This document shows positions 1 to 39,520 of a stretch of DNA of 45,244 bases, piece after piece. The notes under the pieces were generated by a model. That model saw nothing but the letters and a program-made list of their open reading frames with translations, was not told the DNA's origin and ran no database searches. The stretch covers positions 1 through 45,244 of the forward strand of contig NZ_JAOULD010000012.1 of assembly GCF_029882185.1 (NCBI RefSeq), written 5' to 3'. Every line of letters starts with the position of its first letter. Positions within the stretch are counted from its first letter, which is position 1. Made by a program: the position numbers and the translations under genes. The DNA is from Candidatus Nitrosopumilus sp. GTDB taxonomy: Archaea; Thermoproteota; Nitrososphaeria; Nitrososphaerales; Nitrosopumilaceae.

Positions 1-164
1 TTGATTGGTTAGGAAACAAACACAATGATTCTAAATGTATTGGGGTTGGAGCCAAATTAGAATCCATAATATTTGATTTGGTAAAATCCGGCGTAAAAAC
101 CAAAGATATTGGTGGTACTAGTAGCACTACTGAATTTACAAAACAGATTACTGACAATCTCTAA
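1..164 (+). CDS. 3' end of isocitrate/3-isopropylmalate dehydrogenase family gene (partial)
   Basis: The window opens inside this gene; frame 3 gives 53 residues before the TAA at 162-164. The tail contains KTKDIGGTSSTTEF, the C-terminal signature of the NAD(P)-dependent beta-decarboxylating dehydrogenases (isocitrate, isopropylmalate or homoisocitrate). The enzyme oxidatively decarboxylates a 2-hydroxy acid in the TCA cycle or leucine/lysine pathways; which substrate cannot be decided from the tail. The gene is the integration target of the casposon: the stop codon coincides with the first bases of the left terminal inverted repeat, so the reading frame is preserved. The 5' part is outside the window. 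Confidence 0.8.
   Translation, partial: DWLGNKHNDSKCIGVGAKLESIIFDLVKSGVKTKDIGGTSSTTEFTKQITDNL
151..161. repeat. left target-site duplication of casposon
   Basis: The 11-bp CTGACAATCTC here is repeated at 11131-11141, directly outside the right inverted repeat. Identity extends to 25 bp (148-172 and 11128-11152) because the native target downstream of the insertion point happens to match the start of the inverted repeat, so the true duplication could be 11 to about 14 bp. It encodes the last residues (T)DNL of the target gene. Confidence 0.75.
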
Positions 165-204
165 AAATAGAACACCCCTCTCTCAGGCGTAAAAACTGAC
201 AGGT
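162..204 (+). repeat. left terminal inverted repeat of casposon
   Basis: Aligned without gaps to the reverse complement of 11088-11130, 31 of 43 positions match. The first ten (TAAAAATAGA) and last twelve (AAACTGACAGGT) bases are identical, with a C-rich stretch in between. It starts inside the stop codon of the target gene. The conserved outer and inner blocks are where Cas1 would be expected to recognise the end. Confidence 0.8.
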
Positions 205-274
205 CTTGAAAAGTTATCAGAATAGTATTTTTTGGAAATTCCTTATGATCATGCTTTGGACTATGATTTTCGTT

Positions 275-1336
275 ATGACTCTAAAAGAAAAAAGAAATCA
301 TTACAACGTAAAATTCCTCAAAGGATACGGCCATTCCATTTCTGTAAAGGATTCCAAAATCATTCTAAAGGATTGCCATGATCCCTTTTCTCCACCATTC
401 ATTGAAGAATGGTTTCCAAACAGAATGCCATATGAAAAGATCGTACTTTCTGGCAAGGGATACGTCTCAACTGAAGCATTGGGCATGCTGTCAGAAAATA
501 ATCGTAATGTAATCCTAGTCAATTCCAAAGGGGACATCCAATGTGTGATGAGTGGAACAAAAAGCTCGCTTACTGCAACAAAGTATCGCATGGCCCAGTA
601 TGACACGTTTCGCATTGCATCAAAGAGGGATTACCTGTCAAGACAGGTAGTCAAAGCCAAGATTGGTTCGCAGATTCAGTTTCTAAAGAGCATTGAAAAC
701 CCACAAGTTGAATCAAGCATAGAAAAACTAGAAAAACATCTCAATGATCTGGGAAACAATGTTTTGCATGCAGAGGCAGTCACAAGCAGACTCTACTTTG
801 GGGCATTTTCAAAACTAATTGATGAGAGATTCAAGTTTTCTGCTAGGAATTTACCAATGACTGTGAAAAAGTATGGTGCGACAGACGTGATTAATGCCCT
901 GTTGAACTATGGCTATTCTGTATTGTCTGGGGAAATATCCAAATTCATTCACGGTGTTGGTCTTGACCCTTATTTTGGATTCTATCACAAGAATCATACA
1001 AGTTTCCAATCCTTGGTCTATGACATGATGGAGCCCTTTAGGTGGCTGGTTGAATGTGCAGTTTGGAACATCTCCAATGCAAAATCAAGGCATAGGATCT
1101 CAAAGAAACAGTATTCGTATACTAGAAAAGGAACAGTTGTGTTGGAGTATGATTTGATAAAGTCATTTTTGGAATTGTTGGAGAGAACTTTTCAGAAAGA
1201 GAGAAAATATGATTACAAATTTGGATTAAAGACCAAAGATGGGTTGAAATCAGTTCAGGAGATTACTATTGCAAAGATTGCAGTTCAGAATTTAGCAGAG
1301 CATTGTCTTGGAAAGAATAAAAATTTTGTAATTTAG
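275..1336 (+). CDS. cas1: casposase Cas1 (solo Cas1 integrase)
   Basis: Cas1 fold endonuclease/integrase, here expected to cut and join the casposon ends rather than acquire spacers. The N-terminal beta domain has VKFLKGYGHSISV and YEKIVLSGKGYVSTEALGML. The catalytic helical domain carries E167 in HAEAVTSRLYFG, H238 in GLDPYFGFYH and D250/E253 in LVYDMMEPFR, so all metal ligands are present. Length is 353 residues with this start, close to typical Cas1 plus a C-terminal tail. The frame is open back to a TTG at 206, but that would start 2 nt after the inverted repeat and add an odd Met-rich leader; ATG 275 leaves room for a promoter. No cas2 or array is nearby. The first palindromic repeat follows the stop by 5 nt. 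Confidence 0.9.
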   Translation: MTLKEKRNHYNVKFLKGYGHSISVKDSKIILKDCHDPFSPPFIEEWFPNRMPYEKIVLSGKGYVSTEALGMLSENNRNVILVNSKGDIQCVMSGTKSSLTATKYRMAQYDTFRIASKRDYLSRQVVKAKIGSQIQFLKSIENPQVESSIEKLEKHLNDLGNNVLHAEAVTSRLYFGAFSKLIDERFKFSARNLPMTVKKYGATDVINALLNYGYSVLSGEISKFIHGVGLDPYFGFYHKNHTSFQSLVYDMMEPFRWLVECAVWNISNAKSRHRISKKQYSYTRKGTVVLEYDLIKSFLELLERTFQKERKYDYKFGLKTKDGLKSVQEITIAKIAVQNLAEHCLGKNKNFVI

Positions 1337-1341
1337 ATAAT

Positions 1342-1367
1342 GCGTAATCCTAATGGAGATTATGAAA
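1342..1367. repeat. casposon junction palindrome, copy a (orientation A)
   Basis: Core 1345-1362, TAATCCTAATGGAGATTA, an imperfect palindrome with outer GCG/TATGAAA. It lies 5 nt after the cas1 stop and before the zinc-ribbon pair. Orientation A is defined by CCTA on the left arm. Confidence 0.75.
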
Positions 1368-1467
1368 TTACAAAAAATATGAAACCAATATTTTCATTGA
1401 TTCTAACAAAAGAGAATCTAATCCTTAACTTAAGATAATATGTGACATTATTTGGAAATTGTACATC

Positions 1468-1683
1468 ATGCATTTTTGCCACAATATTTGTATTAAATAC
1501 AAGGCGATGAAACCAAAAAATTACAAATCCAGGTATGAAGAAGGTCAAAAGTTTTGTTCTGGTTGCAGTATATTCATAGAATGGGAGGGCCTGTGGTGTC
1601 CGTGCTGTGGTTATCTCTTAAAACAAGGTCCAAAAAATCGTCACCTTCGAAATAAAATGAATCTAAAAAATGAGAAATCATGA
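1468..1683 (+). CDS. small zinc-ribbon protein (cargo), paralogue of the next gene
   Basis: A 71-residue basic protein with an N-terminal CxxxC (FCHNIC) followed by KYK, then CSGC, FIEWEGLWCPCCGY and a basic tail. CxxC plus CPCC should bind one zinc. The family is common and multicopy in ammonia-oxidising archaea, with unknown function, perhaps nucleic-acid binding. ATG 1468 is chosen because it aligns with the start of the next gene; a TTG at 1459 would add three residues. It overlaps the next gene by 4 nt and lies between palindromic repeats a and b. Confidence 0.7.
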   Translation: MHFCHNICIKYKAMKPKNYKSRYEEGQKFCSGCSIFIEWEGLWCPCCGYLLKQGPKNRHLRNKMNLKNEKS

Positions 1684-1889
1684 CATGTAAAGGAATTTGT
1701 GAACGATACAAAATAACAAAAGGAAAGAAAAATGAGTCTTGGTACAAAAAAGGTGCCAAGCGATGCACAGTCTGCACAATATTCATAGAATGGGAGGGAC
1801 TTTGGTGTCCATGCTGTGGATATATGCTTAGAAATAAACCAAAAGGTAATCAATATAAAAAAACTTTGAAAAGATCTAGAATCGATTAA
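1680..1889 (+). CDS. small zinc-ribbon protein (cargo), tandem paralogue
   Basis: A 69-residue paralogue of the preceding gene: CKGICERYK at the N-terminus, CTVC at about 31-34, then IFIEWEGLWCPCCGYML and a Lys-rich tail. The start overlaps the upstream stop by 4 nt (ATGA), so the two are probably translated from one message. The central block shared by the two is almost identical, pointing to a tandem duplication. Palindromic repeat b begins 23 nt after the stop. Confidence 0.75.
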   Translation: MTCKGICERYKITKGKKNESWYKKGAKRCTVCTIFIEWEGLWCPCCGYMLRNKPKGNQYKKTLKRSRID

Positions 1890-1911
1890 AAATGATGTCG
1901 AAATTTTGATT

Positions 1912-1935
1912 CATAATCTTAGATAGGCTTATGAA
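1912..1935. repeat. casposon junction palindrome, copy b (orientation B)
   Basis: CATAATCTTAGATAGGCTTA followed by TGAA; an imperfect palindrome in the orientation opposite to copy a. It lies between the converging ends of the zinc-ribbon pair and the micro-gene at 1946-2068. Confidence 0.7.
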
Positions 1936-1945
1936 GACAACAAGA

Positions 1946-2068
1946 TTATTCTAGTGGAAAATCGGTTTTACAAATTATACAACGTCCTCTCATTCCTTTG
2001 TATCCCTCATTATAATATTGAATAATTTCTTTTTCACAAATAAAACAAATTATCCTTTTTTCAGACAA
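1946..2068 (-). CDS. 40-aa double-CxxC zinc micro-protein (cargo)
   Basis: The minus strand gives a 40-residue ORF with CFIC near residue 8 and CIICKTDFPLE at the C-terminus, a classic two-knuckle zinc ribbon. The only plausible start is TTG at 2068 (an ATA lies further upstream), so the exact start is uncertain. It fills the interval between palindromic repeats b and c, which would otherwise look non-coding. Function is unknown; a nucleic-acid-binding or protein-interaction role is a guess. Confidence 0.5.
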   Translation of the reverse strand: MSEKRIICFICEKEIIQYYNEGYKGMRGRCIICKTDFPLE

Positions 2069-2097
2069 TACTTCTGATATGTATTCTTATGTTATAA

Positions 2098-2122
2098 GAT
2101 AATCTTAGATAGGATTATGAAG
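2098..2122. repeat. casposon junction palindrome, copy c (orientation B)
   Basis: Core 2100-2117, TAATCTTAGATAGGATTA, then TGAAG. It lies between two divergent genes (minus start at 2068, plus start at 2162), so this copy is at their shared promoter region. Confidence 0.75.
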
Positions 2123-2161
2123 TTTTATAGATAATCAAATATTTCTCAAATTTGTACAAAT

Positions 2162-2683
2162 ATGTCTGAATGGGATATTCCTAATTGGATCACATTGGTA
2201 GTTGAGATTGCTGTTGCAATCTTTGCAATTGCCATCTCCTTGAAATTTTACAAACGAGGAAAAGAACAACAAGAAAAGGCAAAGAAGATTCTTGACAGGA
2301 TTGAAGAATTTACAAAACATGAAACTGAACTAAAAAAAGACAGACATAAACAGTTATTTACTGAATTTGAAGGTATCAAAAAATTTCTAAATCAACTTGA
2401 TGAGGATGTTTATGATGTTCCTTCCGATAAAAATTACATCGAGACATTCAAAAAAGGAAAAGTCGAAATTCCAAGATTAATTAGTAATTATGGTGATCTT
2501 ATGACCTTCGATGAAAAAAATTTGTTTGAGGGATTAAAGGAACATTTTGAAGATATGGCAGAAAGAGATCAAATTAGTATTGAACAAATCCAACCAATAA
2601 TTCATCACATAGATTCTTGTTACCTACAACCCTTAACAGAAATTTATTCTAAAAAATTTTCAGGAGATAATTCGTCTCTTTAG
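2162..2683 (+). CDS. membrane-anchored coiled-coil protein (cargo), unknown
   Basis: 173 residues. One N-terminal transmembrane helix (about 9-29, WITLVVEIAVAIFAIAISLKF) is followed by a charged Lys/Glu coiled-coil (30-65) and a mostly helical cytoplasmic domain. I recognise no family. It sits alone between repeats c and d. The same plan (N-terminal membrane anchor, coiled coil, helical domain) recurs in the cargo gene at 4254-4949, which suggests a common type of role at the membrane such as exclusion or defence; that is inference. Confidence 0.7.
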   Translation: MSEWDIPNWITLVVEIAVAIFAIAISLKFYKRGKEQQEKAKKILDRIEEFTKHETELKKDRHKQLFTEFEGIKKFLNQLDEDVYDVPSDKNYIETFKKGKVEIPRLISNYGDLMTFDEKNLFEGLKEHFEDMAERDQISIEQIQPIIHHIDSCYLQPLTEIYSKKFSGDNSSL

Positions 2684-2691
2684 ATTTTTTA

Positions 2692-2716
2692 CATAATCCT
2701 ATACAAGATTAGGAAG
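2692..2716. repeat. casposon junction palindrome, copy d (orientation A)
   Basis: Core 2694-2711, TAATCCTATACAAGATTA. It starts 9 nt after the stop of the membrane protein gene and opens the interval with the two C2H2-like micro-genes. Confidence 0.75.
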
Positions 2717-2841
2717 TATTGTAACCTCTCAGTTCTATTGCCAGACTCATCTTGTTTTTTGAACTGGACATTCTTACTTGAAGATTACAGCAGGGGAAGA
2801 GAGGAAACTAATTATGGAATTACAGTAATGTTATGAAAAAA

Positions 2842-2879
2842 CCTGACTGCAAAAAGATGACTCCCAAGGTGCAGTCAGG
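2842..2879. repeat. 9-bp perfect inverted repeat in a gene-poor stretch
   Basis: CCTGACTGC at 2842-2850 and its exact complement GCAGTCAGG at 2871-2879 would form a hairpin with a 20-nt loop. It lies in the 2717-3180 stretch, where I see no convincing gene; a 30-codon ORF at 2833-2925 spans the repeat and is doubtful. It could be a structured RNA, a protein-binding site or a relic. Confidence 0.5.
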
Positions 2880-3180
2880 CCAGATTGGAATAACTAGTAG
2901 GTTAGACGGTATGACAGACGCTTAACTTGATTTTGTTTAATGTATTTTTGATAAAAAGGAAATGAGGTAAAGGATAGTAAGTATTTTTTACTTAGATCCT
3001 AGTATTCTCAACATGAAGAGTAGTTGCAGTAAACGAGGACGAGCCATATTTAATCATCTTTTTACATTTGATATGAATAGGAATCTAATGCAAACTAATC
3101 TTTCATAAAATTAAGTTTTCTAAACAAATCACTGATGATTTCTACGTGTCGCTTTAATACTAAAAATTCATAATACTTGT

Positions 3181-3300
3181 ATGCCATGTGATTGTTTCAA
3201 GTGTTATGTATGTGATTTAACATTCAGAGACGAATCAATATCGAACATTCACAAGGACATACTAAAGCACTCCATCAGTAAGATACAGGTTGTTTCATAA
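3181..3300 (+). CDS. 39-aa C2H2-like zinc micro-protein (cargo)
   Basis: ATG at 3181 opens a 39-residue ORF beginning MPCDCFKCYVCDLTFRDE. CYVC is followed by two His (IHKDILKH) at spacing compatible with a C2H2 finger (CxxC...HxxxxH). It is one of two finger genes in the interval between repeats d and e; its 3' end faces that of 3387-3512, 87 nt away. Archaeal single C2H2 fingers of this size are usually of unknown function and may act as DNA-binding regulators. The zinc spacing supports a real gene, but length alone does not. Confidence 0.5.
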   Translation: MPCDCFKCYVCDLTFRDESISNIHKDILKHSISKIQVVS

Positions 3301-3386
3301 AATGACCGCTAGAGATTACTATCAAAATGATCTTATTTTATATTTAATTCCAATGTAACTCATTGAAAGAGATTAAATCTTGCACA

Positions 3387-3512
3387 TCATGTCCAGAGGT
3401 TAAGTTCTTTTGATTCTTTCTTGCTTCTCCACTTGTGTTCTATTTGTAAGTGAACCTCCAGCTTGTGAGGAGTATCTAGGATTGTATGGCAGATTAGACA
3501 GCGGTAGGACAT
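3387..3512 (-). CDS. 41-aa C2H2 zinc-finger protein (cargo), paralogue of 38563-38691
   Basis: Minus-strand ORF of 41 residues: MSYRCLIC at the start, then LDTPHKLEVHLQIEHKW. The spacing C-x2-C, H, H-x4-H matches a C2H2 finger. A close full-length relative lies at 38563-38691 (N-terminal 29 residues almost identical at protein and DNA level). Conservation of reading frame with silent and conservative changes between the copies is good evidence for a real protein. The shared upstream segment (around 3513-3555) also matches upstream of the second copy, so the promoter travelled with it. Confidence 0.75.
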   Translation of the reverse strand: MSYRCLICHTILDTPHKLEVHLQIEHKWRSKKESKELNLWT

Positions 3513-3556
3513 GGGATCTAAGATAAATAATTTTGGAATTAAAGGAGAGGGTTATT

Positions 3557-3582
3557 GCGTAATCTTGTATAGGATTATGAAA
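3557..3582. repeat. casposon junction palindrome, copy e (orientation B)
   Basis: Core 3560-3577, TAATCTTGTATAGGATTA, flanked by GCG and TGAAA. It lies between the start of the minus-strand finger gene and the 3' end of the next minus-strand gene, 5 nt from its stop. Confidence 0.75.
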
Positions 3583-3586
3583 AATC

Positions 3587-4075
3587 TCATGGATTTTCAG
3601 AAGTTAAAAAATCCTCTATAGCTTCTTCTGCTGATGCATCAAAAACAAAAGTCTTAAACTGTATTCTGTGTGATTCAACATCATCACAAGATATCCATGC
3701 CGTCATGATCATTTCGTTTTCAATTTTAAAAATTTTTCCAGCCTTAGCAAACCCATGGAATTCTAAAACTATGTTAGATTTTTCTCCTGGAAATAAGGTG
3801 AAAGGGGATGAAAGAATTTCAGTGACTATCCTATCCTCTGGAACAAAATGTAAAATGCAATTTGTTGCAACATCATTCCCAAAATTGTTTATTGTAAAAT
3901 CCACAAGAAACCATTGATATGGTGATACTAATTTTGGATAATCTACAGCAGTAATTTCAATTTCATCATCACAACCCCCAAAAAAACATAATCCAACAAC
4001 AGATATTTCCATAACAATAAAAAATATTGCAATAGCTGCAACAATGCCTATTATTGCAATACTTTTTGGCTTCAA
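3587..4075 (-). CDS. membrane-anchored extracellular beta-domain protein (cargo), unknown
   Basis: 162 residues. An N-terminal transmembrane helix or uncleaved signal (about 7-32, IAIIGIVAAIAIFFIVMEIS) precedes CFFGGC and a beta-rich domain containing FTINNFGNDVATNCILHF, FPGEKSNIVLEFHGF and a later ISCDD. This resembles CARDB/immunoglobulin-like adhesion modules, and the protein probably faces outside the cell. No precise family is recognised. It is alone between repeats e and f. Confidence 0.65.
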   Translation of the reverse strand: MKPKSIAIIGIVAAIAIFFIVMEISVVGLCFFGGCDDEIEITAVDYPKLVSPYQWFLVDFTINNFGNDVATNCILHFVPEDRIVTEILSSPFTLFPGEKSNIVLEFHGFAKAGKIFKIENEMIMTAWISCDDVESHRIQFKTFVFDASAEEAIEDFLTSENP

Positions 4076-4170
4076 AGCATTTTTTTATTGTGTGTGGATT
4101 ACTTATCTAACAATCATGATTCTCAATTTTAGAAAATAATGATGTCAATATTTTGAATTATACCCAATTT

Positions 4171-4194
4171 GCATAATCCTATCTAAGATTACGC
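4171..4194. repeat. casposon junction palindrome, copy f (orientation A)
   Basis: Core 4174-4191, TAATCCTATCTAAGATTA, the most symmetrical copy, flanked by GCA and CGC. It lies between two divergent genes, 96 nt from the minus-strand start (4075) and 60 nt from the plus-strand start (4254). Confidence 0.8.
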
Positions 4195-4253
4195 AATCAT
4201 GTTGGATAGAAACATAGTAAAATGAAAAATAGTCCTTCTATGGAAATAATAAA

Positions 4254-4949
4254 ATGAATCCTCTCGTTGCACCAATTCCAATTTTAGTTGCAATAGGGTT
4301 TGCAATAGGTTTTATGTTTAATTATACTCCTGACCCATATGCTGAATTATCAATTATTCTTGGAGCAATCAGTATTGGGTTAGCTTTTGCTATTTTTATT
4401 TTACAGCAAAGCCAAAATCAAAAAATCAGTGATCTGGCAAAAGAACAGCATGAAATGATTCAAAAAATTAAGGAAATATCAATTCAACAACAACAAAATA
4501 GAAAAAGTAGGTTAAAACTTGCTCTGCCAAAAATTATAGATGAACTAAAAAATCTACAAACAAGCTACAAATCACTAAAGAGGATTTTAGATGACCCTAA
4601 AAGAGAAGAAATTCTTACACAATTTGAAATGACATCATATAAGAGAAATGATTCTTTTGTAACGGCTGCACGTATTCCACCGCTAATTTTGACTACTAAA
4701 TACGCTGAAAATAAGATGAGAGAATTGTTTAAAGATATTCAATCTGATCTAGATCGAATTATCATGGAAAATACAATTAATCATCCACATTGGGCATGGG
4801 AACATTTTGAGTTTTGTATAAAAAATAAAAATAATTTACAATTGATTAGAGATAGAGTTGATAGTATGGATTTTTCAGTTCAACTACAATATTGTGATTT
4901 TTTGATTGAATATTATGAGTCAGCATTAGCAGATGTCAAAAGTAACTAA
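4254..4949 (+). CDS. membrane protein with two N-terminal helices and coiled coil (cargo), unknown
   Basis: 231 residues. Two hydrophobic segments (about 5-22 and 32-50) are followed by a Gln/Lys-rich coiled coil (52-85) and a helical domain ending FLIEYYESALADVKSN. The architecture parallels the cargo gene at 2162-2683, but I see no direct sequence match. It lies between repeats f and g. A half copy of the palindrome (TAATCCTATCTCATAAAC) follows the stop at about 4950. No family is recognised. Confidence 0.7.
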   Translation: MNPLVAPIPILVAIGFAIGFMFNYTPDPYAELSIILGAISIGLAFAIFILQQSQNQKISDLAKEQHEMIQKIKEISIQQQQNRKSRLKLALPKIIDELKNLQTSYKSLKRILDDPKREEILTQFEMTSYKRNDSFVTAARIPPLILTTKYAENKMRELFKDIQSDLDRIIMENTINHPHWAWEHFEFCIKNKNNLQLIRDRVDSMDFSVQLQYCDFLIEYYESALADVKSN

Positions 4950-5010
4950 TCCTATCTCATAAACGAATTGAACAAAAATTTCTAATCCAGATTTATCAAG
5001 TTAAATTCTT

Positions 5011-5036
5011 GCATAATCTCCATTAGGATTACGAAA
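5011..5036. repeat. casposon junction palindrome, copy g (orientation B)
   Basis: Core 5014-5031, TAATCTCCATTAGGATTA. It lies between converging genes and contains the stop codon (and last codons) of the minus-strand gene 5029-5694, so the gene end is formed by the repeat. Confidence 0.75.
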
Positions 5037-5694
5037 AATTATTGTTAATTTTCCTAAACTCTATCTGCGCAGATTGTTTTTCTAACTTTGATTTTCTTTT
5101 TGAGTCAGATATTTTTCTAGAGAATAACGAAAATGTGCTGAAAATAGCTAAAATGATCATCAATTTCCCGTTCTTAACGTGATTATCAATAATTGGTTTC
5201 CACATCTTGGCCATAGTGTTTGACTCTTCTTTGGATAATCCTTCAATTAACGGGTAGTGGATTTTAGTCAGATCGAAGATCAATTTGCACATGGAACTGA
5301 CTGATTCTATTGGAATCTCAAATTTCGGGATATTATCATGAGAATTTACATCAATGAAAGTATCTGCAGCATCATTATTTTCAAATTCATTCAAAGGTAT
5401 GCTCTGAGGCATAGGCTCAAGTGTCACTATCATGTCACTTTGGATAGTTTCTTTTGTGCCTGAAAGTCCAAATGATCGGAGACTGTGGCCTCGCTTTGAT
5501 AGTTCTTTTTTCAAGATAAAGTGAAACAGTGGCTTGTGGTTTTTCTCATTAAAACCACCTGCGTTATGACCAGAATTTAGAAAATCATGAAAATTAATGG
5601 TCCTGTTTTGTTTTGTTGTATAATCAAAATCGTTGTCTAAATTATCATTAATCCATCTTCTTAGTATTTCTGATTTTGATAATTTTTCAGACAT
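5029..5694 (-). CDS. tail-anchored protein of unknown function (cargo)
   Basis: 221 residues, mostly hydrophilic, with a hydrophobic segment near the C-terminus (about 176-192, LMIILAIFSTFSLFS) and a short basic tail, suggesting a tail-anchored membrane protein. The N-terminal part (about 1-80: KSEILRRWINDNLDND..., ILKKELSKRGHSLRSFG) looks like a small helical DNA- or RNA-binding module. The family is not recognised. The stop codon lies inside palindromic repeat g. It is the last cargo gene; no repeat occurs on its other side. Confidence 0.65.
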   Translation of the reverse strand: MSEKLSKSEILRRWINDNLDNDFDYTTKQNRTINFHDFLNSGHNAGGFNEKNHKPLFHFILKKELSKRGHSLRSFGLSGTKETIQSDMIVTLEPMPQSIPLNEFENNDAADTFIDVNSHDNIPKFEIPIESVSSMCKLIFDLTKIHYPLIEGLSKEESNTMAKMWKPIIDNHVKNGKLMIILAIFSTFSLFSRKISDSKRKSKLEKQSAQIEFRKINNNFS

Positions 5695-7339: not shown

Positions 7340-7669
7340 ATGATGGACAAATCTGAACGAATAAAAAAACTGAAACAAAGATTGGATGCGCTAAAGATAT
7401 TTCCAAACAACAAGGAAGTAAGAATCCTTAAAGAGAGAATTAAAAAACAACTCTCAAATCTTCAAAAGAAACAAGACAAAAAGAAAAAATCTCAAAAATC
7501 TAATTTGTCTCGTTCAGGAAAACTACGACGATACCACAACTACATCAGACAAATCAGAAACAGTTTTCCTAATTTGGAATACAACCAGATTCGAAGTCAG
7601 TTATCAAAACGTAAGCAGGGAAAAGAAGTTTCAATTCCTGATGTAATATGGCAGAATCCGTCCCCGTAA
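7340..7669 (+). CDS. very basic helical protein upstream of the polymerase (candidate terminal protein)
   Basis: 109 residues (an ATG at 7343 is an equal alternative), about one third Lys/Arg. The N-terminal half is a long helix (IKKLKQRLDALKIFPNNK, then a K-rich run); the C-terminal half has several Tyr and Ser that could be priming residues (KLRRYHNYIRQIRNSF, LEYNQIRSQLSKR). It overlaps the polymerase start by 22 nt, so the two are translationally linked. In protein-primed systems such as phi29 the terminal protein gene lies just upstream of the polymerase. The assignment is inference only. Confidence 0.6.
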   Translation: MMDKSERIKKLKQRLDALKIFPNNKEVRILKERIKKQLSNLQKKQDKKKKSQKSNLSRSGKLRRYHNYIRQIRNSFPNLEYNQIRSQLSKRKQGKEVSIPDVIWQNPSP

Positions 7670-9432
7670 CTGATTTCAAAGATCTCTCAAAGATCTATAC
7701 AAAAATCAGACAAAACAGAAACAATGCATGTTCAGATCTTCGGAAAATACATGCATTGGACACTGAAACGTACAATGGCAATATCTTTCTGATTTGCGAC
7801 TCTGATGGGCTATTTCTAGATGATATCACACCTGAATTAGTCATAAATTGGCTATTTTCACAAAAATATCAGGGCTCGTGGAATTTTTTCTACAATCTGT
7901 CATATGATGCAGAAGTTATCCTAAAACTGCTTGGCAAGGAACTTTTCAAATATAGGACAACTGGCAAGCTTGAGTTTAATTTTGTCAAGTATAGAATTGT
8001 GTATTATCCAAGCAAATGCCTCAAGATCACAGCAGGTCACCACAGTACAATTTTTTATGACATTGCACAATTTTATCATTCTGGTTTGGCTGATGCATAT
8101 CAGAATAACATTGGTAAACTATCTGAATCATATCTTGACATAAAAAAGAATAGAAGTCAGTTCACACTACGATATTACAATCACAATAAGAAAAAAATAA
8201 GAAACTACTGTACTACTGATTGTATCCTAACAAAACAACTGGCAGAAAAATGGGTAAAACTGTTTCACTGTGCATTCTCATTTTATCCTGCAAAGTGGCC
8301 ATCATCAGGATACTTGGCAGAAAAAGTTTTGATTAATCACGGAGTCAATTTTCCAAAGTTTGATACGATACCGTATCTAATTCAAGATTTATCATTTCGT
8401 AGTTACTTTGGAGGTAGATTTGAAATGATAAAACGTGGACATGTTGGTGAATCATATCTGTATGACATCAACTCTGCATATCCACATGCGATTGCAAACC
8501 TGCCTGATCTAAATGATGGAAAGTGGTTAAAGAAAAAAACAATGCACAAAGATGCAAAACTTGGATTCTTTAAAATATTATGTGACATACCAGATACAAA
8601 ACACATTCCACCATTTCCATTCAGAACAAACAACAACATTGTATTTCCAACAGGCAAGTTCATCACATATTGTACTTTAGCAGAACTTCAAGCCTGCAAA
8701 GATGATTCTCTTTACAGGATTCTTGAAGGATACCAGTTTTTTGCAAATTCTGATATTCATCCATATCGTGTTTTTATCGAAAAACTGTACCAGAAAAGAA
8801 TAGAACTAAAGAATCAAAACAATCCCTTACAGCAACCAATCAAGATTATTCTAAACTCCATCTATGGCAAGACGGGTCAAAAAGTAAACAGAGTGATGGG
8901 AAATTTGTTTAATCCTGTTATTTTTTCATACATTACGGGCTTTACTCGCGCTCAACTGTACAGGTTTATGCGTAAAAATGACCTAGAGCGAGACATTGTA
9001 GCATTTGCAACTGATTCTATCTGTTCCACACGTAAACTGGATGTAAATTCTACAAAACTAGGCGATTTCTCATTTGAAGGAGAATCAAGTGATACGTTCT
9101 TTCTGCAAAACGGATTCTATCGGTTCAACGGTAAATGGAAGCAGAGAGGAATTGGAAAACTAGGATCAAGGGAAATTGAACATCTTGATACGATAGAAAA
9201 AGACGGCAAGCTAATTGCAAAGTTGCAGGTTTTGAGAAATTCTAGATTGCGTTCAAGCATCATTCAAAATAAATTGCAAGATATAGGCAAAATCAAACAA
9301 ATTACAAAGGAAATCAATCTCAATGCAGACAGGAAAAGATTGTGGCTAGGCAAAATTGCAAGTATCAATCAAAAGGAATCAAATGATTCTGTGGCAATTT
9401 CATTGAATCATTTCAGGAAGGAGCAGGTTTAA
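7648..9432 (+). CDS. family-B DNA polymerase, protein-primed type, with 3'-5' exonuclease
   Basis: 594 residues. Exonuclease motifs: ExoI HALDTETYNG (D38, E40), ExoII FYNLSYDAEV (D87), ExoIII YCTTDC (Y187, D191). Polymerase motifs: A YDINSAYPH (D273), B KIILNSIYGKTG (K399-Y406), C FATDS (D456). The size and compact motif spacing match protein-primed PolB (pPolB) as in casposon family 1 and phi29-like replicons, which copy linear DNA from a terminal protein. The first Asp of the canonical DTDS in motif C is Ala here (A454); the main metal ligand D456 is kept. It is coupled to the basic protein upstream and converges with the HEPN gene (4-nt overlap). A decayed relative lies at 26674-26880. Confidence 0.9.
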   Translation: MAESVPVTDFKDLSKIYTKIRQNRNNACSDLRKIHALDTETYNGNIFLICDSDGLFLDDITPELVINWLFSQKYQGSWNFFYNLSYDAEVILKLLGKELFKYRTTGKLEFNFVKYRIVYYPSKCLKITAGHHSTIFYDIAQFYHSGLADAYQNNIGKLSESYLDIKKNRSQFTLRYYNHNKKKIRNYCTTDCILTKQLAEKWVKLFHCAFSFYPAKWPSSGYLAEKVLINHGVNFPKFDTIPYLIQDLSFRSYFGGRFEMIKRGHVGESYLYDINSAYPHAIANLPDLNDGKWLKKKTMHKDAKLGFFKILCDIPDTKHIPPFPFRTNNNIVFPTGKFITYCTLAELQACKDDSLYRILEGYQFFANSDIHPYRVFIEKLYQKRIELKNQNNPLQQPIKIILNSIYGKTGQKVNRVMGNLFNPVIFSYITGFTRAQLYRFMRKNDLERDIVAFATDSICSTRKLDVNSTKLGDFSFEGESSDTFFLQNGFYRFNGKWKQRGIGKLGSREIEHLDTIEKDGKLIAKLQVLRNSRLRSSIIQNKLQDIGKIKQITKEINLNADRKRLWLGKIASINQKESNDSVAISLNHFRKEQV

Positions 9433-10301
9433 TTTTGTTCAATTTGTTTACAAGTATTTTTTACATTATCTAGCATCTTTTTCAAATTATCTTTTTGTTC
9501 GAGATAAATTTCATCTGAAATTTTTTCATCAATTTGAAAAGGATATCTAGAAATTTCTTGATGTGGATAAGTAAGTGCTATAATATCTATCCAATCCATA
9601 CATTTACACAATTTAAGATATTTTGTCATATTTTGTGTTAAATCCCGCGATAATGTTTTTCCGCCAGAACCCCATCCAAAATTATTCATTACTTTGTTCA
9701 TTATTTCCATAGTTTTTTCAGGATTTTCCATTGAAAATAGATTTGGCAGATGTTGTAAAAATTCTAAACCTGCTTTTTCTCTTTCAGTTAATTTTGACGT
9801 ATCAATTTTGTCAATACCAATTTTATCAATTGCTGATTGATAATCGGATGAAACGACATTACTTTGTTCATAAAATTCATCCACATTTTTTAAGAATTTT
9901 GTGAATTTTCCTTGGAATAAATTTGATTCATGTTTATTTAACGACAACGCAAGTGATTCTTTCCAAATTGCTATTTTAGCTACTTCGTTGGATTCAATAA
10001 ACTCCAATAATTCATGAAGGTTTTCTAAAGCCCCCCAACTTAATTTTACATAATCGGTAGGGGGATCTAAATTAATTTTTTTTGCAGATATTATCATTTC
10101 ATCTATAATTTTTGGCATCTGAAGATGGCCTAGATTTTTTATATTGTGAACTATTTCATTTTTTAACAAATATGCTTTCAAGTGTTTTTCTAATGCCTGT
10201 TGTAAAAAAAATCCAGTTATTGGATAATCTCCATTTTTAAAGGCATTCTCTGCTCGTTGAATGTCTGTTTTTCCATACTGAAATAAATCTAAATAATTCA
10301 T
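9429..10301 (-). CDS. HEPN-domain protein
   Basis: 290 residues. The first 110 residues have the HEPN pattern: AENAFKNGDYPITGFFLQQALEKHLKAYLL, then LGHLQMPKIIDEM. HEPN proteins are often RNases of toxin-antitoxin or defence systems, or partners of a nucleotidyltransferase, which is absent here. I do not see a clear RxxxxH catalytic motif, so it may be non-catalytic. The C-terminal 180 residues are helical and unrecognised. It converges with the polymerase gene, overlapping by 4 nt, and is the last protein gene of the casposon. Confidence 0.65.
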   Translation of the reverse strand: MNYLDLFQYGKTDIQRAENAFKNGDYPITGFFLQQALEKHLKAYLLKNEIVHNIKNLGHLQMPKIIDEMIISAKKINLDPPTDYVKLSWGALENLHELLEFIESNEVAKIAIWKESLALSLNKHESNLFQGKFTKFLKNVDEFYEQSNVVSSDYQSAIDKIGIDKIDTSKLTEREKAGLEFLQHLPNLFSMENPEKTMEIMNKVMNNFGWGSGGKTLSRDLTQNMTKYLKLCKCMDWIDIIALTYPHQEISRYPFQIDEKISDEIYLEQKDNLKKMLDNVKNTCKQIEQN

Positions 10302-10985: not shown

Positions 10986-11087
10986 GTTTTTAATTTCAAA
11001 ACTCCTCTTGCAAAACCATTTCTATTAACAAAGTTTCCATTGCATCTTCAATGAAGAATTTTGAATGAATCAAGAACTACTTTCTAA

Positions 11088-11130
11088 ACCTGTCAGTTTG
11101 CAGGCACAAACGGGGGGCAGTCTATTTTTA
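11088..11130 (-). repeat. right terminal inverted repeat of casposon
   Basis: The reverse complement aligns with 162-204 at 31 of 43 positions without gaps, with identical outer TAAAAATAGA and inner AAACTGACAGGT blocks. The middle is more G/C-rich (CCCCCC) than in the left end. Confidence 0.8.
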
Positions 11131-11141
11131 CTGACAATCTC
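11131..11141. repeat. right target-site duplication of casposon
   Basis: CTGACAATCTC, identical to 151-161. The three bases before it (TTA) and eleven after (to 11152) also match the left side, giving 25 bp in total. Removing one copy together with 162-11130 restores an uninterrupted dehydrogenase 3' end and stop codon. Confidence 0.75.
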
Positions 11142-11170
11142 TAAAAATAGAATCCCTCCTTTTTGTGCCT
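11142..11170 (+). repeat. TIR-like sequence outside the right end of the casposon
   Basis: Read on the plus strand, this stretch matches the reverse complement of the right terminal repeat at 24 of 29 positions without gaps, including TAAAAATAGA and TTTGTGCCT. It is in the orientation expected for a left end. It is either the native terminator region of the dehydrogenase gene, which the element's ends mimic, or the remaining end of a second casposon. The 11171-11470 stretch that follows holds no gene I can support. Confidence 0.55.
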
Positions 11171-29128: not shown

Positions 29129-30229
29129 TTGAAACAAAGAAGCTTGCTTTTATTTGAAAATAGCATAAAATCTGAGGCCACAAAGAAGGAATATTTTAAG
29201 AGTCTCAACAGATTCAAGGAATTTTTCAAATTAAAGGATTTTGATAGCATAATCAAGATGGAACCAAAACAGATCCAAATTATGATTGAGGACTACGTGA
29301 TGGAAATTAAGAACCATCTGTCTCCTAATACTGTCCCTACTAGGATTTTTCCGATTCAGACGTTCTGTGATGTTAATGATGTTATTCTAAACTGGAAGAA
29401 AATAAGGCGGTTGTTCCCTGCCAAGGTTAAAAGATCCGGTGCAAAGCCATGGACTACCAAGAATATTCAAAAGATGCTGGAATATTCTCCTGATGCTCGC
29501 TCAAAGGCACTGATTCATTTCCTTGCTTCAACAGGTGTCCGAATTGGTGCAATTTCTGAGTTGAGATTGAAGCATTTGGCAGAGATGTCAGGTGGTTGCA
29601 AGTCCGTGATTGTATACCCTGATTCGACTGAGGAATATGTGACATATATGACTCCTGAGGCCTCAAAAGCACTTAATGTTTATCTGAACAAGAGGCGTGA
29701 TGATGGTGAACTGATTAAACCTGACAGTCCAGTGTTTAGAACACAATATCAGATTGGAATTCAGAAGGTCACACCATTAAGTGAACGCGGAATGAGCAAT
29801 GTAATGCAACGAGTAATCAAAAGATCTTTGATAAAGAGAGAGAAAAACAATGGCCCAAGATATGATGTGCAGCTTGATCATGGATTTCGCAAGCGATGGA
29901 ATACGATCTTAAAATTAAACAAGGATATTTCGCCAGCTGTTGTCGAGAAGATGATGGGACACAAAGTAAACCTTGATCATGTCTACATGACTCCAACAGA
30001 TGATCAAATGTTTGGAGAATTTCAAAAGGCTATTGCTGATCTTACCATAGATGATTCTGAAAGAGTAAGGGTTGAAAATGAAAAGCTTGAAACTGAAAAG
30101 ACAGAGCTTGAAAAGAAGGTAGATGAGATTGAAGAAATGAAGCGCCAGCAGGCCGACGAGAACGCAAGGCGTGACCAGGCCTTGGAGTACCTAATGGCCA
30201 AAGAGAAGGCACGGGAAGAGAATATTTGA
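29129..30229 (+). CDS. tyrosine recombinase/integrase
   Basis: 366 residues from TTG. N-terminal SAM-like core-binding domain (about 5-95) and catalytic domain: R138 in STGVRIGAISEL, H251 and R254 in LDHGFRKRWNTI, H278 in MMGHKV and the nucleophile Y286 in DHVYMTPT, so the RHRHY set is complete apart from a Lys I cannot place. The C-terminal 65 residues are a charged coiled coil (VENEKLETEKTELEKKVDEI) that might mediate oligomerisation. It converges with 30231-31148 with a 1-nt gap. It should integrate and excise the element. Confidence 0.88.
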   Translation: MKQRSLLLFENSIKSEATKKEYFKSLNRFKEFFKLKDFDSIIKMEPKQIQIMIEDYVMEIKNHLSPNTVPTRIFPIQTFCDVNDVILNWKKIRRLFPAKVKRSGAKPWTTKNIQKMLEYSPDARSKALIHFLASTGVRIGAISELRLKHLAEMSGGCKSVIVYPDSTEEYVTYMTPEASKALNVYLNKRRDDGELIKPDSPVFRTQYQIGIQKVTPLSERGMSNVMQRVIKRSLIKREKNNGPRYDVQLDHGFRKRWNTILKLNKDISPAVVEKMMGHKVNLDHVYMTPTDDQMFGEFQKAIADLTIDDSERVRVENEKLETEKTELEKKVDEIEEMKRQQADENARRDQALEYLMAKEKAREENI

Positions 30230-38562: not shown

Positions 38563-38691
38563 ATGTCCTACCGCTGTCTAATCTGCCAAACAGTCCTAGA
38601 CACTCCTCACAAGCTGGAGGTTCACTTGCAGATAGAACACAAGTGGAACCAAAAGAAGGAAGCACCAAAAGGACTTGACAGTTGGACATGA
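38563..38691 (+). CDS. 42-aa C2H2 zinc-finger protein, relative of casposon cargo gene
   Basis: MSYRCLICQTVLDTPHKLEV then HLQIEHKWNQKKEAPKGLDS. The C-x2-C, H, H-x4-H finger is intact. DNA and protein are close to the casposon gene at 3387-3512, including upstream sequence. Its stop overlaps the start of the next gene (ATGA), so the two are coupled. It is likely a DNA- or protein-binding micro-factor. Confidence 0.75.
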   Translation: MSYRCLICQTVLDTPHKLEVHLQIEHKWNQKKEAPKGLDSWT

Positions 38692-39265: not shown

Positions 39266-39520
39266 TCATTTCATGCCTTGCAGGGGAATATGTCCTAGAT
39301 ACAAGGCAGTAAAACCTCCTGCCCGTGCCAATCCCTCACCAATTAGAACTAAAACACCCAATGGAATGGTTCTTGCTGATTTTAGGTCTAAAAGATGCCC
39401 TCGATTATTATTAGATGAGGATACAACAAGTAAAACTATCACACCAACAATCAATCTTAGTGAGGAATATTTTTCATAAGGGTTGTTTATCTCAAATGTA
39501 TCACCGTTTGCGGTGTCCAA
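39266..39520 (-). CDS. possible small membrane protein
   Basis: 84 residues with hydrophobic segments at about 25-38 (RLIVGVIVLLVVSS) and 50-75 (RTIPLGVLVLIGEGLARAGGFTALYLGHI). On the opposite strand the same DNA starts MPCRGICPRYKAVKP, which matches the N-terminus of the zinc-ribbon family. Only one can be functional, and I cannot decide by eye; the minus-strand protein looks more like a membrane protein remnant. Confidence 0.35.
   Translation of the reverse strand: MDTANGDTFEINNPYEKYSSLRLIVGVIVLLVVSSSNNNRGHLLDLKSARTIPLGVLVLIGEGLARAGGFTALYLGHIPLQGMK

Follow-up and report, generated by a model that had tools for sequence, protein, structure and literature searches.

Introduction

The closest working model for the locus described here appears, by analogy, to be the dif module of Acinetobacter plasmids (pdif/XerCD), in which a 6-bp spacer match on both sides lets one module be replaced, according to the available part of PMC13141974. 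In common with the modules described there, the archaeal locus combines 28-bp sites, with 11-bp arms and a variable 6-bp spacer, with cassettes of unrelated genes and a Xer-type recombinase. It differs in lying on archaeal chromosomes and in a casposon instead of on bacterial plasmids, in the sequence of the arms, which here are alike except at one inner base, in a centre order conserved across species, in the presence of the recombinase gene beside some arrays, and in showing no strict alternation of orientation. Integrons, including the archaeal ones in the available text of Ghaly et al. 2022 (PMC9668308), offer a second comparison: they too form cassette arrays with a tyrosine recombinase at one end (here in some genomes), and many arrays likewise lack the recombinase (CALIN-like); unlike integrons, the present sites are not attC-like and their centres are ordered. 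The main text of that paper contains no word starting with 'Nitroso', and the accessible text of a 2019 mobile-element survey (PMC6563490) places integrons among the classes not detected in ammonia-oxidising archaea. The dif sites of the archaeal XerA/dif system share the 11-6-11 plan, and the nearest solved relatives of our recombinase are XerA-type, but dif is a single chromosomal site where we find an array (PMC2958812 and PMC8371274, in the portions available); the former describes Thaumarchaea as having no xerA gene.

In this work we analyze a window of 45,244 nt (the whole stretch of DNA under study) from Candidatus Nitrosopumilus sp. (GCF_029882185.1, contig NZ_JAOULD010000012.1, positions 1-45,244, forward strand). 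Few marine microbes are as abundant as ammonia-oxidising archaea, and the row of cassettes with recombination-like sites found in this window points to what may be an undescribed route of gene trading among them. A sequence-only reading of the window had concentrated on five tiny zinc-type genes and overlooked what the repeats around them signify; the repeats are the stronger finding. We consider it probable that the micro-genes ride along in an array of cassettes moved by site-specific recombination, with ordered slots and changing genes, and that this array is nested in a family-1 casposon. No published description of such ordered arrays with distinct centres was found in the open-access literature.

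The casposon and its array of sites

The element carrying the micro-genes is a family-1 casposon. As in that family, its polymerase is of the protein-primed type, and its core is homologous to that of other casposons; terminal inverted repeats (arms 162-211 and 11081-11130, 72% complementary) and a target duplication are also present. Cas1, protein-primed-type PolB, small conserved genes and terminal repeats are likewise the features given for family-1 casposons of Thaumarchaeota in the available text of PMC6563490 and PMC4046053, from which the element departs in its site array, here an insertion in the element. Between the casposase and the casposon core, seven 28-bp near-palindromes (TTKCRTAATCY-N6-RGATTAYGMAA) divide positions 1340-5036 into intervals that each hold one or two ORFs. 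The sites form two head-to-head arrays, one reading e-f-g along the + strand and the other d-c-b-a along the - strand (centre names are given in the next section):

148..172, left 25-nt direct repeat flanking the casposon (target duplication), with an identical 25 nt at 11128-11152
206..1336, + strand, casposase (Cas1 family) of the casposon core, Pfam PF01867 at 6.3e-47
1340..1367, + strand, site a, centre CTAATGGA (U3 on the - strand), directly after the casposase stop
1468..1683, + strand, zinc-ribbon micro-gene 1, 71 aa (ORF list, family alignment, homologues)
1680..1889, + strand, zinc-ribbon micro-gene 2, 69 aa (ORF list, homologues)
1909..1936, + strand, site b, centre TTAGATAG (U2 on the - strand)
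1946..2068, - strand, double-CxxC micro-gene, 40 aa, TTG start (ORF list, homologues)
2095..2122, + strand, site c, centre TTAGATAG (U2 on the - strand)
2162..2683, + strand, cassette gene, 173 aa, hydrophobic stretch at the N-terminus
2689..2716, + strand, site d, centre CTATACAA (T1 on the - strand)
3181..3300, + strand, C2H2-like micro-gene, 39 aa (ORF list, homologues)
3387..3512, - strand, C2H2 micro-gene, 41 aa (ORF list, homologues)
3555..3582, + strand, site e, centre TTGTATAG (T1)
3587..4075, - strand, 162-aa cassette gene
4169..4196, + strand, site f, centre CTATCTAA (U2)
4254..4949, + strand, 231-aa cassette gene, with a partial homologue in another casposon (G080)
5009..5036, + strand, site g, centre TCCATTAG (U3)
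7648..9432, + strand, casposon family-B DNA polymerase, PF03175 at 1.2e-23
9429..10301, HEPN protein at the casposon end, PF05168, possibly a defence or toxin gene
11128..11152, right 25-nt direct repeat, identical to the left copy

The 28-bp site was absent at up to 3 mismatches from all 11 other casposase-bearing regions (12 regions fetched from other genomes) and present at that threshold in one of 29 casposase loci, that of genome G125; being absent from the former and rare in the latter, the array is not a standard casposon part. In IMG/VR no relatives of the casposase were found, and the exact T1, U2 and T2 site sequences matched 0 contigs each. A casposase fragment lies 72 bp from a T1 site on contig 27 of genome G218.

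Pieces of casposon also recur next to 28-bp sites at two further loci. At one, a polymerase fragment lies 29 bp from a T1 site (L148); at the other, on contig C73 of the window's own genome (L086, 109-2194), a U3 and a T1 site enclose the beginning of the window's 173-aa gene, joined to a stretch resembling the C-terminus of the casposon polymerase. Shortly past the casposon's right end begins another terminal repeat of the left type (11142-11170, 83% complementary to 11102-11130), which suggests that a second casposon, or a remnant of one, may stand in tandem at the same target.

Sites and order of their centres

At up to 3 mismatches the core pattern has 11 matches in the window, seven of them being copies a-g, and 0 of 100 shuffles reach 11. 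Sites with at most 1 mismatch occur in 38 of 80 same-genus genomes, totaling 297 against 20 for a reversed-pattern control, with as many as 49 per genome versus 0-2 for the reversed pattern; the T1 form extends to 28 of 250 family genomes and 6 of 22 genera. The consensus of 177 sites comprises two 11-bp half-sites around a 6-bp centre, with a T at position -13, outside the search pattern, conserved in 90% of them. The half-sites vary independently at an A/G position (55 mixed among 134, 48-67 expected), and one inner base gives most sites a polarity, C/C combinations being observed once where 20.6 are expected (n=152). Neighbouring sites alternate in polarity 60 times and agree 32 times (35:25 by distinct kinds, a trend); strict alternation as in dif modules was dropped, since these counts show a trend only.

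Across genomes, the central 8-mers of the arrays recur in a conserved order and orientation, yet they separate unrelated genes. The recognised centres are:

T1, TTGTATAG
T2, CATAGTAA
T3, TAACTACA
T4, TTCCCAGA
T5, TCTACTAG
T6, TACCTAAG or C
T7, TGGTACTA
U2, CTATCTAA
U3, TCCATTAG

Two series starting from T1 dominate, T1-T2-T3-T4-T5-T6-T7, whose members are often absent, and T1-U2-U3; genome G124 inserts CTGGTATA-TTCCTTAG ahead of U2-U3. With 70 adjacent pairs that include an unclassified centre left out, pair directions were 12:1 for T1 to T2, 9:0 for T2 to T3, 8:0 for U2 to U3 and 9:1, plus one divergent, for T1 to U2; the arrays were gathered partly through T1 sites and more sequence was taken downstream of T1, a sampling that favours T1-first pairs and does not favour T2 to T3 or U2 to U3. 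Adjacent typed pairs were co-oriented in 102 of 117 cases, and order consistency reached 0.82 against a shuffle mean of 0.59 and maximum of 0.75 (2000 shuffles); these counts, like those of content and density below, leave out sites above 2 mismatches and 2-mismatch sites without a recognised centre or, in pair counts, without a near neighbour.

Grouped by homology, the contents of equivalent slots are almost all different: 12 T1-T2 intervals fall into 11 groups, 9 T1-U2 intervals into 9, 9 T2-T3 intervals into 9 and 8 U2-U3 intervals into 8. As six homology groups turn up in two or more slot classes, the slots are not sealed, and a slot code, if there is one, is a loose one. The idea that T1 docks at one conserved place in the chromosome was rejected, its outer neighbours recurring in a few genomes at most, and half-site domino chains between neighbouring centres were dropped, only some pairs fitting by eye.

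Among the cassettes seen elsewhere, an array in G124 (L211) has two in which a cyclase-like ORF comes after a response regulator, and histidine kinases and response regulators recur as cassettes in the G218 arrays; the G124 names and the G218 regulator name are readings of the sequence.

Homology breaks at sites

Counting homology ends more than 40 bp from a locus end, 34 of 266 unique ends are found no more than 30 bp from a site centre, where 500 random placements give a mean of 3.8 and a maximum of 12; ends at sites are nonetheless a minority, which counts against the cassette model. When ends within 1.5 kb of a site are considered, 34 of 169 fall at site centres where 6.5 (maximum 15) are expected. 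Flank matches between sites are one-sided in 89 of 107 cases, a figure obtained without a separate control and with overlapping contigs and the ends of contigs counted in. Individual examples are sharp: two G218 arrays match perfectly for 200 bp along one flank of a TAACTACA site and are unrelated along the opposite flank, and the 41-aa finger cassette aligns with a copy at 38563 from just past the stop codon to the edge of site e, where the alignment ends.

A XerA-like tyrosine recombinase

Two of the G218 arrays end beside a tyrosine recombinase (PF00589, 1.5e-14) whose best NCBIfam model is XerA; it scores 75.7 and 77.9 bits with the archaeal XerA model NF040815, below the cut-off of 220, and is hence called XerA-like only. 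Its PDB sequence matches are limited to the XerC-like recombinase 4a8e, which we take to be Pyrococcus abyssi XerA, and to Thermoplasma acidophilum XerA 5hxy, and its AlphaFold model (mean pLDDT 44.1) is too poor for use. In 7 of 9 copies a site lies 20-323 bp past the 3′ end of the gene, or near 5 of 7 genes when the two copies that first drew attention are omitted. The family is present in 5 of the 80 genus genomes (38 with sites), including three of the four with at least 20 sites, and a contig scan returned five loci with the recombinase, four in a single MAG (NORP47) and one in Nitrosopumilus OFTM383.

The adjacency of recombinase and array is an integron trait, present at 7 of the 9 copies and not in the window's genome. 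Membership of the integrons was nevertheless rejected on two counts: the integrase model TIGR02249 gives 38.8 and 27.0 bits against a cut-off of 265, and the attC core motif, RYYYAAC/GTTRRRY, occurs in 16 of 134 perfect sites. Nor does every array-bearing genome have the enzyme: the window's own genome lacks the XerA-like family, though it has three other PF00589 proteins, and the complete genome G124, which carries 15 sites, yielded nothing with PF00589. Arrays of this kind may therefore be relics, be served in trans, or depend on another, unrecognised enzyme.

Existence and spread of the zinc micro-genes

The five zinc-type micro-genes of 39-71 codons proposed from the sequence alone were all recovered, and the intervals between sites b and c and between d and e, which had seemed non-coding, enclose the 40-aa gene and the two fingers, respectively. 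The ATG at 1468 of zinc-ribbon gene 1 agrees with the family alignment (MHFCHNICIKYKA versus MTCKGICERYKI). The claim that the cargo consists largely of such genes holds by gene count (5 of the 8 ORFs between sites a and g) and does not hold by codons (260 of 826). In all four families median pS is higher than median pN, indicating purifying selection: 0.90/0.22 for the 41-aa finger (30 distinct copies including self), 0.78/0.38 for the zinc ribbon (28 copies), 0.87/0.33 for the 39-aa finger (6 copies) and 0.70/0.38 for the 40-aa double-CxxC protein (3 copies), copies with an internal stop being left out and pN being biased downwards because the homologues were collected by protein similarity. 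Third codon positions are the commonest place of substitution. Frameshifts do not affect most homologues: 35 of 41 copies of the 41-aa finger, which is present in 32 of 250 family genomes, lack an internal stop, as do 10 of the 12 zinc-ribbon copies in the window's own genome. Judged by their sequences, the micro-genes appear to be real, or at minimum to have been so until recently. No micro-protein matched Pfam, NCBIfam or PHROGs above cut-off (the best PHROGs matches, from a library without a curated cut-off, had E of at least 0.0039), which makes it plausible that the genes are poorly annotated, as had been proposed.

Other expectations were not borne out. Zinc micro-proteins are no hallmark of this cargo: the comparison found no enrichment, micro-ORF density being 0.14/kb in array intervals (19 in 131 kb, or 14 when the window is left out) and 0.11/kb outside (83 in 739 kb). 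Neither are the genes peculiar to casposons: their homologues lie mostly outside such elements, and the chromosome carries many further copies. In G125 (L190) and G208 (L205) the two C2H2 genes are again paired, with no sites nearby. Most likely the micro-proteins are small zinc proteins widespread among these archaea, of which some have turned into cassettes; this view would recast presumed casposon regulators as small mobile cassettes from widespread zinc-protein families. Their putative zinc binding is read from paired cysteines, the AlphaFold model of the zinc ribbon (mean pLDDT 44.0) being too poor for use, and the type of motif suggests that they may bind nucleic acid. No zinc ribbon was found in phage records. 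By description they resemble the zinc-finger micro-proteins of Haloferax volcanii, which in the accessible accounts are also archaeal, under about 70 aa, with paired cysteine motifs and many per genome; the nearest precedent in those accounts comes from zinc micro-proteins of haloarchaea that have roles in regulation or stress.

Alternative explanations

That the micro-ORFs are chance open frames is barely credible. The ORFs are very short and one has a TTG start, but five ORFs with a zinc motif (35-80 aa, double-CxxC or CxxC...H..H/C) were observed in 1365-5011 against a mean of 0.016 and a maximum of 1 in 500 dinucleotide shuffles, and their homologues are under purifying selection. It is very improbable, too, that they are ordinary fixed cargo of the casposon, serving as its own small regulators: they do sit between casposase and casposon core, yet sites are missing from the 11 other casposase-bearing regions and the homologues of the genes are mostly found outside casposons.

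The palindromes themselves could be transcription terminators, regulatory hairpins or operators that do not move genes, a reading suggested by their near-palindromic, intergenic nature and by the location of sites a, b, d, e and g within about 25 bp of a stop codon. We regard it as unlikely: a bacterial-type scan of 1300-5100 returned no terminator-like site, no Rfam match was found, the independence of the half-sites and the tolerance of A-C mismatched arms argue against an RNA-hairpin constraint, centre order is conserved although genes change, and homology breaks fall at sites. About equally improbable is a dispersed (REP- or MITE-like) repeat family, or the termini of nested non-autonomous transposons, with passive genes in between. 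The window copies form nested inverted pairs (a/g, b,c/f and d/e), the pattern expected of nested insertions, but nested transposons do not predict the same ordered centres across genomes with unrelated contents, nor a XerA-like recombinase beside the array. Unsystematic inspection brought no target duplications to light at the sites.

Proposed mechanism of cassette exchange

The preferred reading, a cassette array moved by site-specific recombination, would work as follows. Each 28-bp site would be a putative crossover site for the XerA-like tyrosine recombinase, which the position of its gene suggests may act on the sites, and the cassettes between them would usually hold one to two genes on either strand. 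Since neighbouring centres mostly differ, a cassette would not simply be deleted; it could be exchanged with another array where centres match on both flanks, matching centres presumably steering the exchange. The outcome would be slots that are fixed and ordered, with genes that change freely. Neither excision circles nor inversions were observed, which counts against this reading. The best reading is of an archaeal cassette system working like bacterial dif modules or integrons, with slot-specific site centres added.

A broader scheme, which we put forward tentatively and at somewhat less than even weight, is that Nitrosopumilaceae practise address-coded exchange, in which a XerA-like recombinase and ordered, incompatible centres would allow slot-by-slot swaps, a natural form of recombinase-mediated cassette exchange. 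Casposons would sometimes ferry arrays from genome to genome, and cassettes could capture genes from the chromosome, the 41-aa zinc finger being an example. If true, this would explain part of the accessory-gene turnover in ammonia-oxidising archaea and provide a natural example of slot-specific cassette exchange; it also suggests recombinase-site pairs that can be tested directly.

Additional observations

In Nitrosopumilus OFTM383 (L107, 10001-11251), a lone site lies 309 bp downstream of a XerA-like gene, an arrangement that resembles a cassette-less integron. An ORF adjoining the final site of another array (L098, 2045-2521) joins the N-terminal half of the tyrosine recombinase family encoded at window positions 29129-30229 to a XerA-like C-terminus. 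The window also contains a second copy of the 41-aa C2H2 gene at 38563-38691, near which an ORF at 39273-39479, starting MPCRGICPRYKAVKP, resembles a truncated zinc ribbon.
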